From NCBI GenBank assembly GCA_016874795.1, contig VGTG01000030.1:1-46488 (forward strand): a stretch of 46,488 bases of DNA. The letters run 5' to 3'. The translations under genes and the position numbers were made by a program. The notes below the pieces were generated by a model. The model did not search any database, had not been told where the DNA came from, and saw only the letters and a program-made list of their open reading frames with translations. The stretch's first letter is position 1, and each line of letters begins with the position of its first letter. This stretch comes from Deltaproteobacteria bacterium. GTDB lineage: Bacteria > Desulfobacterota > Binatia > UBA12015. This document shows, piece by piece, positions 12,222 to 19,431 of this stretch.

Positions 12222-12695
12222 ATGCTTTCGGTGTCTTCGAGGGAGAGAGTTAGCTCGGTCGCTGCGGCAATCGCTCTCGTGCTCGCCGGATGCGCCGGCG
12301 ACGGTCCGGGACCGGGAAGCGCTTCGGGAGACTTCGCGGAGATCCAGACCGAGATCTTCGACGTGAGCTGTATTTCGGCGGGTTGCCACGGTGCAGTGTC
12401 GCCGCAGGGCGGGCTCACGCTCGTCGCCGGTCTCTCGTACGACCAGCTCGTCGACGTCGAGCCGACGAACGCCTTCGCGCGCGACATGGGTCTCCTGCGC
12501 GTTGCGCCGGGCCTCGTCGACGACAGCTACCTCGTCCGGAAGCTCACCGGTAACCTGACGCCCGGTGAAGGCATCCGCATGCCGCAGGGCGCAGCGCCCC
12601 TTTCCGACGACCAGATCCAGCTCGTGATCTCCTGGATCGCCGACGGCGCGCCGCCGCCGAGCGACGAGCCGACCCCGACGCCGGACGTCCAGTGA
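12222..12695 (+). CDS. Lipoprotein with CX4CH cytochrome-like motif
   Basis: This 157-residue protein has a lipoprotein signal with lipobox LAGC (Cys24) and a short Gly/Pro linker. Cys50-X4-Cys55-His56 (CISAGCHG) then sits in the setting seen in small cytochrome-type domains ('I....C...CHG', later MPQGAAPLSDDQIQLVISWIADGA, a pattern like the end of class I cytochrome c with a Met ligand). The usual heme motif is CX2CH; a CX4CH spacing is known but unusual, so heme attachment is plausible, not proven. The start may instead be the GTG at 12231, since AGGGGAG stands directly against the ATG. It precedes the selenoprotein gene by 59 bases. Confidence 0.8.
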   Translation: MLSVSSRERVSSVAAAIALVLAGCAGDGPGPGSASGDFAEIQTEIFDVSCISAGCHGAVSPQGGLTLVAGLSYDQLVDVEPTNAFARDMGLLRVAPGLVDDSYLVRKLTGNLTPGEGIRMPQGAAPLSDDQIQLVISWIADGAPPPSDEPTPTPDVQ

Positions 12696-12740
12696 CGTTG
12701 CCGCTTGCGTCGGTGGAGCCGGCGCACGACAAGATCCGCC

Positions 12741-12747
12741 AAGGAGG
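12741..12747 (+). promoter_or_regulatory. Ribosome binding site deciding the selenoprotein start
   Basis: AAGGAGG lies seven bases before the ATG at 12755. It rules out the longer in-frame start near 12692, whose extra residues read like intergenic sequence. Confidence 0.85.
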
Positions 12748-12754
12748 CGAAGCC

Positions 12755-13297
12755 ATGGCCCAGATCGAGATCCTCTCCCCGGTGTCCCTCGGATCCGCCG
12801 AGGTGCGGCCGCTCGCCCCCCGCCTCGACTCCCTGCGGGGGAAGCGGATCGGCATCCGGCGCGACGACACGTGGCGGTCCTTCGAGATCTTCGCCGAGGA
12901 GCTCGGCCGCCTCTTCCGGGAGCGGCTCGACGTGGCCGAGGTGGTCATGTTCGATCCGCAGCTCCGGATCGGCACGCCCGAGGACGAGAGCGCCCGGGTC
13001 GAGGAGTTCGCCCGGAGCGTCGACGCCGCGGTGGTCGGCCTCGGTACTTGAGGGTCCTGCACGTCGTGGAGTGTCCACGACACCGCCATCTGTGAAAGCA
13101 CCGGCGTCCCGGCCGTCGTCGCCCTGACGGAGGTCTTCGCCAACCTCGCCGCGACCGCGGCGCGGGCGCGCGGCTACCCGGACCTCCGGACCCTCGTCCT
13201 GCCACACCCCATGGAGACGAAGACGGTCGAAGAGATCCACGCCATCGTCGAGGCGCGCTTCGAGGAGATCGTCGCGATGCTCGCCGAGCGGCCGTGA
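12755..13297 (+). CDS. UGSC-family selenoprotein (in-frame TGA = Sec99)
   Basis: This is a 180-residue selenoprotein. The frame from the ATG at 12755 meets TGA at 13049-13051 after 98 codons. It then continues without another stop to 13297, with GC-rich third positions and protein-like sequence (TSWSVHDTAICES, VALTEVFANLAATAA). The TGA begins the tetrapeptide Sec-Gly-Ser-Cys (99-102), the signature of the UGSC selenoprotein family, whose non-selenium members have Cys at that place. The hairpin needed for bacterial Sec insertion lies just downstream (13063-13081). UxxC is a redox motif, so a thiol/selenol oxidoreductase role is likely; the substrate is unknown. An ordinary gene caller would stop at 13051 and drop the active site. 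No sel genes lie in this window. Confidence 0.93.
13063..13081 (+). promoter_or_regulatory. Bacterial SECIS-type hairpin
   Basis: A perfect 7-bp stem (GTCGTGG at 13063-13069, CCACGAC at 13075-13081) closes a five-base AGUGU loop. It starts 11 bases after the TGA, which puts the loop G residues 20-22 bases from the TGA. This fits known bacterial SECIS elements: a short stem within the coding region with a G (usually GU) in the apical loop, recognised by SelB. The hairpin is also translated, as the residues after Sec-Gly-Ser-Cys. Confidence 0.85.
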
Positions 13298-13342
13298 CCG
13301 CGCCCGCTTGACCGCGCCCGGAAGGTCACCGATCCTCTCGGC

Positions 13343-14452
13343 GTGGCCCGCGGCACCCTCGTCTCCGAGCGCTTCCGCTTGCCCGACGATCCCGCCGAGC
13401 TCTACGCGTTCGTCGAGAAGGCGGGCTGGGGCGACGGCTTCCCGGTGATCCCCCCGACCGAGGACCGCGTGCAGGCGATGCTCGACGCGACGCCGCGCGC
13501 GCCGGCCGACTCCCTCGGCATGGTCGAGCCCCGCCGGGGCGAGGCGACGGTCGAGAAGGTCGCGATCAACGCCGTCCTCGCGGGCTGCGTGCCCGAGGTC
13601 TTCCCGGTCGTCCTCGCCGCGGTCGAGGCGGTGATCCAGCCGGAGTTCAACCTCTACGCGGTCAACACGACGACCTGCTGCGCCACCCCGGCGCTGATGA
13701 TCAACGGCCCCGCGCGCCGCACCCTCGGCATCGAGTGCGGGTACTCCTGCCTCGGCCACAACGGGCGGGCGAATGCGACGATCGGCCGCGCTCTCCGCCT
13801 CGTGCTGCGGAACGTGGGCGGAGCGGTTCCCGGCACCGGCAGCAAGTCCTGCTTCGGACAGCCGGGCCGCGTCTCGCTCTGCTTCGGCGAGTGGGAGGAG
13901 CGGAGCCCCTGGGAGCCGTTCCACGTGCGGCGCGGCTTCGCCGCGGACGAGAACGTGATCACCGCGACCTGCGCGACCGGGACCCAGGACATCGCCGACG
14001 TCTTCGCGGAGACCGGGGACGAGCTCGCCGACGTCCTCGCGCACGGGATCGACTGGATCGGCAACAACAAGGTGCTCGTCCCGCAGGGCGACGGCGACAT
14101 GCTCCTCCTCCTCTGCCCGGACTTCGCCTACAAGATCGCGCGCGACGGCTACTCGGTGCCGGACCTGCAGCAGATGCTCTTCGAGAGGACGCGGACGCCG
14201 ATCGAGCGCTGGCCGAAGGCCTACTGGCCGAAGCTCGAGGAGCGCGGCTACGTCGAGAGCGACGGCACGGTCCCACTCGCAGCGCGGCCCGACCAGTTCC
14301 TGATCGCGGTCGCGGGCGGGGAGTCCGGCCACCACGCGGTCTACTTCTGCACGTTCGGATTGACGTGGACCGTGAGCCGTCCGTTCTCCCTCGCGGGCGC
14401 CCTCGCCGACGAGGGCGAGTTCTGCGAGCTCCCTTCGACGGCGGGTTCGTGA
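13343..14452 (+). CDS. Cysteine-rich protein downstream of the selenoprotein
   Basis: This 369-residue protein starts at a GTG 45 bases after the selenoprotein stop. No signal peptide is seen, so it is probably cytoplasmic. Clustered cysteines stand out: Cys112-Cys113 (TTTCCATPA), Cys132 and Cys136 (ECGYSCLGHNGRANATIGRA), Cys170 and Cys180 (SCFGQPGRVSLCFGEW) and Cys210 (TATCATGTQD). Conserved-looking Gly/Asn/His residues surround them. This could be a metal or cluster site, or a set of redox thiols. I recognise no family. Close spacing to the UGSC gene, and the overlap with the next gene, suggest that the three work together. The start could lie a little later, for example at a TTG near 13379. 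Confidence 0.85.
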   Translation: MARGTLVSERFRLPDDPAELYAFVEKAGWGDGFPVIPPTEDRVQAMLDATPRAPADSLGMVEPRRGEATVEKVAINAVLAGCVPEVFPVVLAAVEAVIQPEFNLYAVNTTTCCATPALMINGPARRTLGIECGYSCLGHNGRANATIGRALRLVLRNVGGAVPGTGSKSCFGQPGRVSLCFGEWEERSPWEPFHVRRGFAADENVITATCATGTQDIADVFAETGDELADVLAHGIDWIGNNKVLVPQGDGDMLLLLCPDFAYKIARDGYSVPDLQQMLFERTRTPIERWPKAYWPKLEERGYVESDGTVPLAARPDQFLIAVAGGESGHHAVYFCTFGLTWTVSRPFSLAGALADEGEFCELPSTAGS

Positions 14453-15441: not shown

Positions 15442-16425
15442 CTACCTCCACGCGCAGCGACGCGCCGCCGATTCGGCGAAGTACGTGAGGATCAGATCGG
15501 CGCCCGCGCGATGGATCGCAGTCAGCGTCTCGTCGACGACGCGCTCCTCGTCGAGCCAGCCGCGCTCCGCCGCCGCCTTGATCATCGCGTACTCCCCGCT
15601 CACCTGGTACGCCGCGACCGGAACGTGGCAGGCGGCCCGCACCGCGGCGATCACGTCGAGATTCGGAAGAGCCGGCTTCACCATCACGAGGTCCGCTCCC
15701 TCGGCGAGATCCTGCTCGAGCTCGCGGAGGGCCTCGCGTCCGTTCGCCGGATCCATCTGGTAGCTCCGGCGATCGCCGAAGGCGGGCGTCGACTCGGCGG
15801 CGTCGCGGAACGGGCCGTAGAAGCCCGAGGCGTACTTGACCGCGTACGAGAGGATCGGCGTCCGCTCGAAGCCCGCCTGGTCGAGAGCGCGCCGGATCGC
15901 ACCGACGCGCCCGTCCATCATGTCGGAGGGCGCGACGACGTCCGCTCCCGCGCGCGCGTGCGACACCGCCTCGCGCGCGAGGAGCTCGAGCGTCGGGTCG
16001 TTCGCGACGTCCTCGCCGTGCAGCACGCCGCAGTGGCCGTGATCCGTGTACTCGCAGAGGCAGACGTCGGTGATCAGCGTCATCTCGGGGACATCCTTCC
16101 GGAGCGCCGCGAGCGCCGCCTGCACCACGCCGTCCTCGCGCCAGGCGTGCGTCCCCGTCGGGTCCTTTCCTTCCGGGATCCCGAAGAGGATCACGCTCCG
16201 CACGCCCGCTTCGAACGCCCGATTCGCCTCCTCGCCGACGCGGTCGACGGACCAGCGACGGACGCCGGGCATCGACGCGACCGCCTCCGCCTTTCCCCGA
16301 CCGGGAACGACGAACAGCGGCAGCACGAGCGAAGCGGGATGGAGCCGCGTCTCGCGGACGAGCGTCCGCAGACGCTCGCTGCCGCGGAGACGCCTCGGAC
16401 GGACGGTCGGGAACTCGCCGGGCAT
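15442..16425 (-). CDS. hemB: Porphobilinogen synthase (ALA dehydratase)
   Basis: This 327-residue enzyme condenses two 5-aminolevulinate molecules to porphobilinogen. The zinc site is present as Cys122, Cys124 and Cys132 ([14 protein letters not shown]), the type found in E. coli and animals. The Schiff-base lysines are Lys197 ([13 protein letters not shown]) and Lys250 ([10 protein letters not shown]). Its ATG overlaps the stop of the cobA-hemD fusion by one base (TGATG). It follows hemA, hemC and hemD in the pathway cluster. Confidence 0.97.
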
Positions 16426-17972
16426 CAGGCTTCCTCCTGCTCACCCCGTCGAAACGACTCGACGACGGCCGCGGCGAGCGCCGGGATCGTGTACTCCTTC
16501 GGCATCACGTCGACGCGAAGACCGGCTTCGCGCGCCGTCTGCGCCGTGATCGGGCCGATGCACGCGACGCGCGCTTCCGCGACGCGCTTCCTCCCTTCCT
16601 TTTCGTCGGCCCGATCGAGAAGGCCGAGAAAGCTCGTCACCGTGCTCGAGCTCGTGAACGTCAAGCAATCGAGCGGACCGTCCTCGAGCACGGCGCGCAA
16701 GCGCTCTGTACCCTCGATCGGCGCGACGCTCTCGTAGGTCTGCACCTCGTCGACGTCGGCGCCGCGCGACCGGAGGCCGTCCGGCAGGACGGCGCGCGCG
16801 CCCGCGGCGCGCGGCAGGAGCACGCGCGCACCCTTCAGATCGTACCCCGCCATCGCTTCGAGAAGCCCCTCCGCACGGAAATCGTCCGGGACGAGATCGG
16901 GCTTGAGGTGCCGCTCCTCGAGAGAGCGCGCCGTCTCCGTCCCGATCGCCGCGATCCGCGCGCCGTGAAGGACGCGCAGGTCGCGACCCGAAGCGAGAAG
17001 ACGATCGAAGAAGACCTCGACGCCGTTGGCGCTCGTGAGCACGATCCACTGGTACGAATCGAGGCGCTCGAGCGCCGCTTCGAGCTCCGGGCTCGCGAGA
17101 CGTCGCACCTCGATCACCGGGCACTCGACGACGTCCGCCCCCTGCTCGCCGAGGAGGCGCGAGAAGCGGCTCGCCTGCGCGCGCGTCCGCGTGACGAGGA
17201 TGCGACGGCCGAAGAGCGGTCGGTCCTCGAACCAGCGCATCCGTCCCCGCAGCGACACGACGTCGCCGATGACGACCGTCACCGGCGGCCGGAGGCGCTG
17301 CGCCGCGACGAGCTCCGTCAAGCTGCCTGCCGTTCCCTCGACGACGCGCTGCCGCGGCGTCGAGGCCCAGCGGATGGCCGCAGCGGGCGTGCCCGGAGCG
17401 AGACCCGCCGCGAGCAGGCTCTCGAGATTCGATCGGAGCTGCGTCAAGCCCATCAAGAGTACCAGCGTGTTGCCCGCGGTCGCCAGCTGGTCCCAGCGGA
17501 CGCGCGCATCCGCCTTGCCCGGGGACTCGTGGCCGGTCAGCACGGTCACGCCCGAAACCCAGTCGCGATGCGTGACGGGGATCCCGGCATACGCGGGCGC
17601 GGCGAGCGCCGACGTCACGCCCGGCACGATCTCGAAGCGGAGCCCTGCCGCGAGAAGCGCCTCCGCCTCCTCGCCCCCGCGGCCGAACACGAGAGGATCG
17701 CCGCCCTTGAGCCGCACGACCGTGAGTCCGGCGCGCGCGCGCTCGACGAGCAGCGCGTTGATCTCGGTCTGCTCGAGGAGATGCGGACCGGCGCCGTGCT
17801 TCCCCGCGAACACGCGCTCCGCGCGCGCGGGAGCGTGCTGCAGCAGATCGGCGTTCGCGAGATAGTCGTAGACCACGACGTCGGCGCGTTCGAGGCACTC
17901 CTTCCCACGGAGCGTCAGGCAACCGGGATCGCCAGGACCCGCGCCGACGAGGTAGACGATGCCTTCGCCCAC
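16425..17972 (-). CDS. cobA-hemD: Fused uroporphyrinogen-III C-methyltransferase / synthase
   Basis: This 515-residue fusion joins two steps. Residues about 1-245 are the SAM-dependent methyltransferase that makes precorrin-2 for siroheme and cobalamin ([53 protein letters not shown]). Residues about 255-515 are uroporphyrinogen-III synthase ([48 protein letters not shown]). Such fusions are common in Gram-positives and deltaproteobacterial lineages. With the precorrin-2 dehydrogenase at the head of the cluster, siroheme or B12 synthesis is fed directly. The start is a GTG with a weak ribosome site. Confidence 0.95.
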
Positions 17973-18028
17973 GCACGAGAGGTATCCCCGGCTCCGAACC
18001 CTGGCAAGCGCATGCGAAGGACGTTAGC

Positions 18029-18442
18029 GTGCTCCGCATGTCGCGCTTCCTCGCGATCGCGGCGTCCGTCGCAACGCTCGTGCTCGCGGCGACGATCTCG
18101 ACGCGCGCGGCCGACGAGGAGCCGCCACGTGGTGTCCGCCCGGGTCGAGACGTCGAGATGCGAGGCGAGCTCGTCGAGATCGGCTGCTACCTGCGCGACG
18201 GGAGCCGCGGGCTCGGCCACAAGACCTGCGCGCTCACCTGCCTGAAGAACGGCGGCCGCCTGGCGTTCCTCGAGGACGACACCAGCACGCTGTATCCCCT
18301 CGCGGGCTCGACCCCCGCGAGCGACCCGAGCACGGCCGTGCGCGAGGACATCGCTGCGCACGTCTCGGTGCACGGACGCGTGTACGAGCGCGCGGGGAGC
18401 CGCGTCCTCGTGATCGAGAAGGTCGACCGTCTGAGAGATTAG
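18029..18442 (+). CDS. Secreted three-cysteine protein inside the heme cluster
   Basis: This 137-residue protein has a signal peptide (about 1-28, Ala/Leu-rich, ending TRAADE). The mature part carries Cys53, His64, Cys67 and Cys71 (EIGCYLRDGS, GHKTCALTCLKNGG), then a small beta domain (LAFLEDDTSTLYPLAG, VSVHGRVYERAGSRVLVIEKV) that recalls an OB-like fold. The pattern 'G-C-Y-L...H..C...C...G' resembles widespread uncharacterised exported proteins and could bind a metal. It lies opposite to, and between, hemC and cobA-hemD; its stop overlaps hemC's stop by four bases. The start could be the second Met at 18038. Confidence 0.78.
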   Translation: MLRMSRFLAIAASVATLVLAATISTRAADEEPPRGVRPGRDVEMRGELVEIGCYLRDGSRGLGHKTCALTCLKNGGRLAFLEDDTSTLYPLAGSTPASDPSTAVREDIAAHVSVHGRVYERAGSRVLVIEKVDRLRD

Positions 18443-19431
18443 CCCTGGCTCGACAGGTCGCGCTCGATCTCGTCGAGGATCTCGCGCGCGCCCTCGCGAC
18501 AGAGACGGCTCGCGAGCTCCGAGCCAACCGCCTCCGGGTTCGCGACCGAGCCCCTGCTCCGGCCGCGGACGATCCGCTTCCCGTCGAGGCTCGCGACGAG
18601 ACCGTCGAGCTGGAGCGCGTCCCGGGCGACGTTCGCCGTCGCGAAGGCGGCGACGGGCACGACGCAGCTCGCGCCGAGGTCGCGGAGGAACGCGCGCTCC
18701 GCGGCGCACGCCGCCGCCGCCGCAGGATCGTTCAACAGCGAAACGCGGGCCTGCGTCGCGGCGTCACCCGCGCGGCTCTCGACCGCGAGGGCGCCCTGCC
18801 CCGGCGCCGGAAGGAACGACGCGACCTCCAACGGCCGGGGGCGAAGCGCGACGCCGAGACGACCGAGACCCGCCGCTGCGAGCACGACGGCGTCGACGTC
18901 GCCGCGACGGACCTTCTCGACACGCGTGTCGATGTTGCCGCGGATAGGCACGGTCTCCACGTCGGGCCGGCGCGCGGCGATCTGTGCGCGGCGACGGAGG
19001 CTTCCCGTGCCGACGCGCGTCCCCGGGGCGAGAAGGGCGAGCGCCTCGTCGCCGCTCGCCGCGTCGGCGCCCGATCCGTCGACGTCCTCGCGCAAGATCA
19101 GGACGTCGCGCACGTCGGCGCGCGTCGTCACCGCCGCGAGCGCGAAGCCCTCGGGCAGCTCCGCCGGCATGTCCTTCAGCGAGTGGATCGCGAGGTCGAT
19201 CTCGCCGCGCTCGAGCGCCTCCTCGAGCTCCTTGATGAAGAGACCCTTGCCGCCAACGCGCGCGAGCGACACATCCGCGAGCCGGTCTCCCGACGTGCGC
19301 ACGACGACGAGCTCGACCTCCAATCCTTCCTGCTCGAGCCGCGCCGCGGTCTGACGCGACTGCGCGAGAGCGAGAGCGCTACCGCGGGTTCCGATGCGGA
19401 GCCGCGGGCCCCGCCGCGTCTCAGCCGCCAT
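18439..19431 (-). CDS. hemC: Porphobilinogen deaminase
   Basis: This 330-residue hydroxymethylbilane synthase joins four porphobilinogens into a linear tetrapyrrole. Cys256 (LGASCVVPVAAF) holds the dipyrromethane cofactor. Asp87 (HSLKDMP) is the catalytic aspartate, and the GTGSLRRRAQI segment binds the growing chain. The ATG lies 11 bases inside the hemA end. Its product goes to the HemD half of the next gene on this strand. Confidence 0.97.
   Translation of the reverse strand: MAAETRRGPRLRIGTRGSALALAQSRQTAARLEQEGLEVELVVVRTSGDRLADVSLARVGGKGLFIKELEEALERGEIDLAIHSLKDMPAELPEGFALAAVTTRADVRDVLILREDVDGSGADAASGDEALALLAPGTRVGTGSLRRRAQIAARRPDVETVPIRGNIDTRVEKVRRGDVDAVVLAAAGLGRLGVALRPRPLEVASFLPAPGQGALAVESRAGDAATQARVSLLNDPAAAAACAAERAFLRDLGASCVVPVAAFATANVARDALQLDGLVASLDGKRIVRGRSRGSVANPEAVGSELASRLCREGAREILDEIERDLSSQG

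Follow-up and report, generated by a model that had tools for sequence, protein, structure and literature searches.

UGSC proteins are among the abundant selenoproteins of the Global Ocean Sampling (GOS) samples, where they are represented by 255 sequences (PMC2398784). The passages of that paper that deal with the family assign it no function, and they describe a fusion of UGSC with a domain, Unknown_1, that occurs in few aquatic organisms. Elsewhere, selenoproteins of the type of GrdB, the selenocysteine-bearing B subunit of glycine/sarcosine/betaine reductase, are described as acting to reduce small substrates, and the relevant part of PMC10838667 proposes a duplicated GrdB/GrdE pair for fluoroacetate. 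A limited set of literature that mentions both GrdB and UGSC draws no connection between them. Here we analyze a UGSC gene, and a conserved partner gene beside it, in contig VGTG01000030.1 of a Deltaproteobacteria bacterium of the class Binatia (46,488 nucleotides, hereafter the window). The gene adds a member to a known selenoprotein family. Going beyond the initial annotation of this DNA, we describe the partner gene, an apparent relationship of UGSC to GrdB and a predicted fold.

An in-frame UGA in a member of the UGSC family

The gene begins with ATG at 12755, preceded by GGAGG at 12743–12747, and ends with a TGA stop at 13295–13297. As the initial annotation had stated, an in-frame TGA followed by Gly-Ser-Cys occurs at 13049–13051, codon 99 of 180, and 81 more sense codons follow from codon 100 onward, stop-free until the terminal TGA. 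The annotation also held that routine gene calling would truncate the product to 98 residues; the gene would indeed be cut at the TGA, though with a minor discrepancy in length: an upstream in-frame GTG at 12692 gives a longest mechanical open reading frame (ORF) before the TGA of 119 aa. We favor the ATG as start because of the GGAGG and a profile match that starts at residue 5.

The read-through product matches the Pfam family UGSC (PF24696) at 138.1 bits over residues 5–177, against a gathering cut-off of 25, so that the family membership first proposed is correct by Pfam. With the NCBIfam equivalog NF041046 it scores 95.7 bits, below the curated cut-off of 125, and we therefore file it under the Pfam family and not under the equivalog. 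One UGSC gene was found in the window's own genome. Scoring up to 8 candidates per genome in 395 genomes of the phylum, we found UGSC in at least 38 of them. At least 84 rows were obtained, of which 76 hold exactly one TGA, seven are stop-free and one has a TGA plus other stops; two of the stop-free rows were inspected, and they carry TGC (L050) and, in an extra domain, GGG (L044). Among 123 UGSC domain hits in the fetched loci, the codon at the selenocysteine (Sec) site is TGA in 114, TGC in four, GGG in one and CAG in one, the three unscored hits being one truncated copy and the two halves of a Blastococcus gene with TAG. Homologues thus read through the TGA position and do not end there, and the in-frame UGA of the window gene aligns with Sec or Cys, as had been anticipated. 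There are seven distinct Cys forms, some of them close kin (L127 and L206 are one contig stretch), and in one of the 120 rows of alignment A5 (L070, a Cys form) the terminator is read as Cys. The second Cys of the UxxC motif is conserved in 119 of 121 rows.

Five orthologues in further genomes belonging to the same genus or family, 61–73% identical to the window protein over the UGSC domain, keep both the TGA and the order UGSC–partner, which makes a read-level error at this codon, raised earlier as a way in which the assignment could fail, very unlikely. Downstream of the TGA, the ratio of non-synonymous to synonymous substitution rates (dN/dS) is 0.90 against the orthologue in L205 and 0.28–0.43 against the other four.

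UGSC-domain paralogues that lack the Sec/Cys motif also occur, with Q-G-V-T at L055:5104-6822, where the paralogue remains fused to a partner domain, and G-D-R-C at L044:814-1317. A genome of the same class (G198) has 12 UGSC matches, one of them partial. A search for relatives of the UGSC protein in viral contigs found none.

Codon 99 and the machinery that would decode it

All four sel genes, whose presence the initial annotation had suggested checking, are present in the genome. Genes for SelB (334 bits) and SelA (538 bits) are adjacent on one contig. The genome further has a gene for SelD (272 bits) and a tRNA-Sec (65 bits) that carries the anticodon UCA. We then followed codon and tRNA together, scoring 150 candidates per genome. 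In the window's family (14 genomes), all nine genomes with TGA-UGSC (G000, G403–G407, G410, G411 and G415) have tRNA-Sec(UCA). In the two genomes with Cys forms only (G408 and G412) no tRNA-Sec was found, the best place being a tRNA-Ser. Three genomes of the family yielded no UGSC; tRNA-Sec was present in G414 (63% complete) and was searched for and not found in G409 and G413. Outside the family, tRNA-Sec was found in four of five TGA genomes and in none of four Cys genomes. Since the L127 genome of this outside set is G408, the Cys genomes number five distinct ones in total.

In Blastococcus sp. CT_GayMR19, the Sec site carries TAG (L100:9735-9737; also L165), and the best Rfam tRNA-Sec match in that genome (66.7 bits) has a CUA anticodon and is labeled Pyl by ARAGORN. 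UAG-coded UGSC in Geodermatophilaceae has already been published, as the pertinent section of PMC5330540 states, citing Mukai 2016. Molybdopterin oxidoreductases were searched as other Sec clients in the window's own genome; none of nine matches has a stop inside the matched stretch.

A hairpin in a register shared across the family

A perfect hairpin at the position of a bacterial selenocysteine insertion sequence (SECIS) had been reported, and it is borne out. An uninterrupted stem is formed by arms at 13063–13070 and 13074–13081 around a loop at 13071–13073, in a register common to 86 of 113 Sec sites. For the window alone, total folding energy is not unusual (z 0.68), 30% of synonymous recodings folding equally well or better; the uninterrupted stem is matched by one of 100 synonymous recodings (p 0.02). 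An Rfam scan of 12700–13400 returned one chance miRNA match and nothing else.

Family-wide counts are based on 113 of the 114 TGA sites (108 distinct sequences) in an ungapped alignment. The 48 nt after the TGA gave a mean z of -1.17 against synonymous recoding (Wilcoxon p 1.3e-16), compared with -0.18 (p 0.05) for an upstream control stretch in the same test. In 86 of the 113 sites, the loop centre of the best uninterrupted hairpin of at least 5 pairs falls 18–20 nt past the TGA. Recoded hairpins do so in 29.5% of cases, and the control stretch is without such a peak. In the shared register, 84.4% of cells of the distinct sequences are paired, compared with at most 47.0% in slid registers. 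Two-sided changes affect 76 cells against 26.6 in shuffles, and none of 500 shuffles reaches 76, with the caveat that kinship among the sequences inflates covariation counts. Counted by stem pair, six show any two-sided change, which does not exceed what shuffling gives (221 of 500 shuffles get as far). The clearest covarying pair is G-C in 63 sequences and C-G in 37. It links the third position of a Trp/Cys codon with the third position two codons on (mostly Val/Ile), so that a substitution altering the protein is compensated by a second that is often silent.

All 8 stem pairs are kept in the window, the five orthologues and the Blastococcus gene, and in 40 of 113 Sec sites overall. None of the seven distinct Cys forms, which are few and partly related, has all 8 (range 5 to 7), and the AGT codon at the loop is found in 86 of 113 Sec forms versus none of those seven.

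It might be argued that translation simply ends at the TGA, or that the TGA arose by sequencing error or as a pseudogene lesion, the downstream ORF being a remnant. The unremarkable total folding energy of the window hairpin and the dN/dS of 0.90 against L205 would fit such a reading. However, five orthologues retain the TGA and the frame beyond it as well as all 8 stem pairs, the profile match extends across the TGA, the stem covaries and the sel genes are present, and we consider this explanation extremely improbable. Comparison with homologues shows UGA codon 99 to be a Sec codon.

Profile similarity between UGSC and GrdB

When UGSC and GrdB profiles were compared with hhalign, the alignment covered 90 columns and placed Sec on Sec with a probability of 96.4 (E 1.2e-9); comparison with a set of short GrdB-like selenoproteins gave a probability of 90.9 (E 1.1e-6), each E-value being that of one profile pair and not of a database search. 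With UGSC columns masked, the GrdB alignment still had an E-value of 2e-6. Among decoys, the best of 60 column-shuffled GrdB profiles reached 0.023 and reversed GrdB 0.017. A UGSC hidden Markov model (HMM) matched six of six GrdB proteins (E 1e-7 to 0.093), two of them at E <1e-6, and seven of 13 short GrdB-like proteins at E <=10 (best 0.005). Of 274 neighbouring proteins, none was matched at E <=10. The Gly_reductase family PF09338 has a weak match in one of 28 UGSC members (0.0089). The window protein shows no PF07355 match at E <=10, and none was found in its own genome. Altogether, these profile comparisons indicate that UGSC is remotely homologous to the catalytic Sec domain of GrdB.

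In the thirteen short GrdB-like proteins (L137–L145, L147, L148, L152 and L155), the match to PF07355 is confined to its last third, and the reading frame continues across an in-frame TGA (UGIC, UPVC, UPFC etc.).

A conserved partner adjoins or is fused to UGSC

The gene downstream of UGSC matches nothing in Pfam, in NCBIfam or, by sequence, in the PDB. By tblastn, a homologue of it is present in 29 of 30 UGSC-anchored loci, the window's own included, and is fused to UGSC in nine; in L050 the two lie 1.3 kb apart. When further stretches from the window's family were fetched, for 11 of 17 non-own UGSC matches, the partner adjoined UGSC in all 11, one of which (L206) equals L127. Conversely, loci found via the partner alone contain a UGSC domain in 74 of 80 cases. 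Partner-anchored counts are biased toward loci that hold the partner, and the UGSC-anchored counts are the fair ones. Across the 123 UGSC hits, a separate partner lies just downstream in 47, just upstream in 43 and farther than 600 nt in five; 27 hits are fused to the partner and one is without it. In this count L070, a Cys form with a single stop that serves as terminator, is classed as separate. Occurrence in either order, together with fusions, argues for a physical unit. The UGSC/Unknown_1 fusion in the GOS authors' account is probably the same pairing.

The partner is 82% and 80% identical to the window's in two of the five orthologues. Residues D31, G32, P34, A80, G81, G122, P123, G148, R149, E183 and G325 are invariant in 100 partners, and Cys82 is conserved in 96 of them. 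The structure predicted for the window partner is confident (mean pLDDT 93.2, pTM 0.92). Searched with this model, Foldseek gave its best row at 1.2e-3 (TM 0.17), short of the E 0.001 threshold, and VIA reached a Z of 7.0 at best; we do not take this as a sign of a new fold. In L085, L090, L093, L110 and L117, a second or third partner gene stands in tandem behind one UGSC gene.

A predicted Rossmann-like fold for UGSC

Sequence searches of the PDB with UGSC, the partner, GrdB and the short GrdB-like set each ended without a significant hit. The best match (0.0031) was a designed protein, with no stretch passing alone, and because of this result the fold of GrdB is not comparable. We describe the fold of UGSC from a predicted structure of a natural UGSC–partner fusion from Betaproteobacteria, L101 (mean pLDDT 94.6, pTM 0.93). 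In this model, the UGSC part has a short first strand and then five strands, each followed by a helix, in strict strand–helix alternation and with no beta-hairpin. Sec (residue 104) lies immediately before the third helix. VIA places CheY-like and other alpha/beta domains at the top of its ranking (Z up to 11.0, 118 residues aligned, 2.5 A). UGSC is thus predicted to be a Rossmann-like alpha/beta domain.

A thioredoxin fold, which has the order beta-alpha-beta-alpha-beta-beta-alpha, has been suggested in print. That strand–helix order is absent from the predicted model of the L101 homologue, and the model speaks against the suggestion; none of 50 VIA rows is titled thioredoxin, which in itself excludes nothing on fold. 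The corresponding functional proposal, that UGSC is a general thioredoxin-fold thiol oxidoreductase (active, for example, in peroxide defence or thiol exchange) and not a substrate reductase, draws on the UxxC motif, which is common to many thiol oxidoreductases. It appears unlikely in view of the five alternating strands and helices without a beta-hairpin, a strand order taken from the model, and of the profile homology to GrdB; a partner of ~370 aa and up to 12 UGSC matches per genome also fit a substrate-specific enzyme better.

A probable two-component enzyme

Adjacency in either order, gene fusions and the confident model of a natural fusion strongly suggest that UGSC and its partner are a two-component enzyme. 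Because GrdB-type proteins are reductases and UGSC genes are likewise multiplied, we propose a Sec-dependent reductase: UGSC and partner would probably form a two-component substrate reductase in which UGSC is the GrdB-related Sec subunit. By the comparative evidence, UGA codon 99 is decoded by SelB and tRNA-Sec with the hairpin acting as SECIS; the two products would associate in the cell. The partner may hold a small organic substrate, which the Sec99–Cys102 pair would reduce, and the resulting selenenyl-sulfide could be re-reduced by a thioredoxin-like donor. In multi-copy genomes, the UGSC versions may differ in substrate.

Several observations weigh against this proposal. With the motif masked, the alignment to the short GrdB-like set falls to a probability of 52 (E 1.4e-4), most of the signal being lost, and the hhalign values carry the single-pair scope given above. 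Four of the six GrdB proteins score E 0.02–0.09 with the UGSC HMM. Peripla_BP_2 has weak matches in four of 28 UGSC members (best 4.9e-5), and the resemblance to GrdB could therefore in part reflect a general alpha/beta likeness. The partner, compared with GrdB alone, shows no similarity to it. No partner was found within ~10 kb of the UGSC gene in L037, and six of 80 partner loci gave no UGSC, a looser search included, although two of these end at a contig edge. A search of the metagenome-assembled genome of L066, a TGA form, found no tRNA-Sec. Finally, a neighbourhood scan for a substrate, comparing the nearest 137 of 339 called ORFs with a random 137 of 257 distant ORFs, gave none: TctC (16 near versus 11 far) and SBP_bac_5 (9 near versus at most 1 far, outside the best 25 families) were judged too weak.

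The pair could alternatively be a selenium-dependent lyase, hydrolase or binding protein, with Sec as nucleophile or ligand and no net redox turnover. No electron-donor family is prominent among the neighbours (best 25 families), and the partner's top non-significant Foldseek rows are cyclic amide hydrolases and fumarate hydratases, as this explanation might lead one to expect. In contrast, those rows are at TM about 0.2, the second UxxC Cys is kept in 119 of 121 rows, as in redox pairs, and the GrdB relatives are reductases; we regard the explanation as decidedly unlikely. Returning to the two-component reductase, we also raise, tentatively, the possibility that it represents an unrecognised class of Sec-dependent reductases whose catalytic Sec domain has a common ancestor with that of GrdB. 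In such a class, a partner of an uncatalogued family would replace the pyruvoyl subunit, which is GrdE for GrdB and PrdA for PrdB, and members in Binatota, Chloroflexota, Proteobacteria and others, at up to 12 matches per genome, would act on different substrates.

The gene itself belongs to a known family; what is new here is the partner, together with the predicted fold and the relationship to GrdB. A two-gene unit, a structural model and a connection to glycine reductase make the function of the UGSC family testable. Annotators should be warned that a UGSC gene of this kind would be cut at its TGA and the partner left nameless.

Features and surroundings of the locus

Table 1. Positions of the UGSC locus features in the window
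Feature	Position	Strand	Description and basis
Shine-Dalgarno-like AAGGAGG	12741..12747	+	7 nt 5' of ATG; sequence
UGSC family selenoprotein gene	12755..13297	+	180 aa, codon 99 TGA read as Sec (predicted); orthologues
Sec codon TGA and UGSC (Sec-Gly-Ser-Cys) motif	13049..13060	+	sequence, homologues
Bacterial SECIS hairpin (putative)	13063..13081	+	8-bp stem, GUG loop; begins 12th nt after TGA
Conserved partner gene	13343..14452	+	369 aa, GTG start; adjoins or fused to UGSC in relatives

Directly 5' of UGSC, a 157-aa ORF (12222–12695, + strand) contains a CISAGCH stretch and has no Pfam match over the cut-off. Near the UGSC pair, genes of haem biosynthesis lie on the - strand (15442–19431), coding for ALAD (HemB), a uroporphyrinogen methylase/synthase fusion and porphobilinogen deaminase.

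Comparison with known systems

With thioredoxin-like UxxC selenoproteins the window protein has the Sec-x-x-Cys motif in common; UGSC differs from them in the alternating alpha/beta arrangement without a beta-hairpin, a difference seen in the model only. The likeness to GrdB (PF07355) and its relative PrdB comprises a Sec domain of ~90 residues that aligns Sec on Sec, the UxxC motif, a conserved E..G.P and (H)P downstream, and an expansion of paralogues in some genomes. However, the window protein is without the long N-terminal part of GrdB/PrdB and the UGSC partner is not GrdB-like. The closest system is the UGSC family itself (PF24696/NF041046), with which the window gene shares near full-length similarity, the UGSC motif, the Sec column, a SECIS in the common register and the partner. 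It departs from other members of that family in standing alone, with a separate downstream partner where others are fused, and in scoring below the NCBIfam equivalog cut-off.
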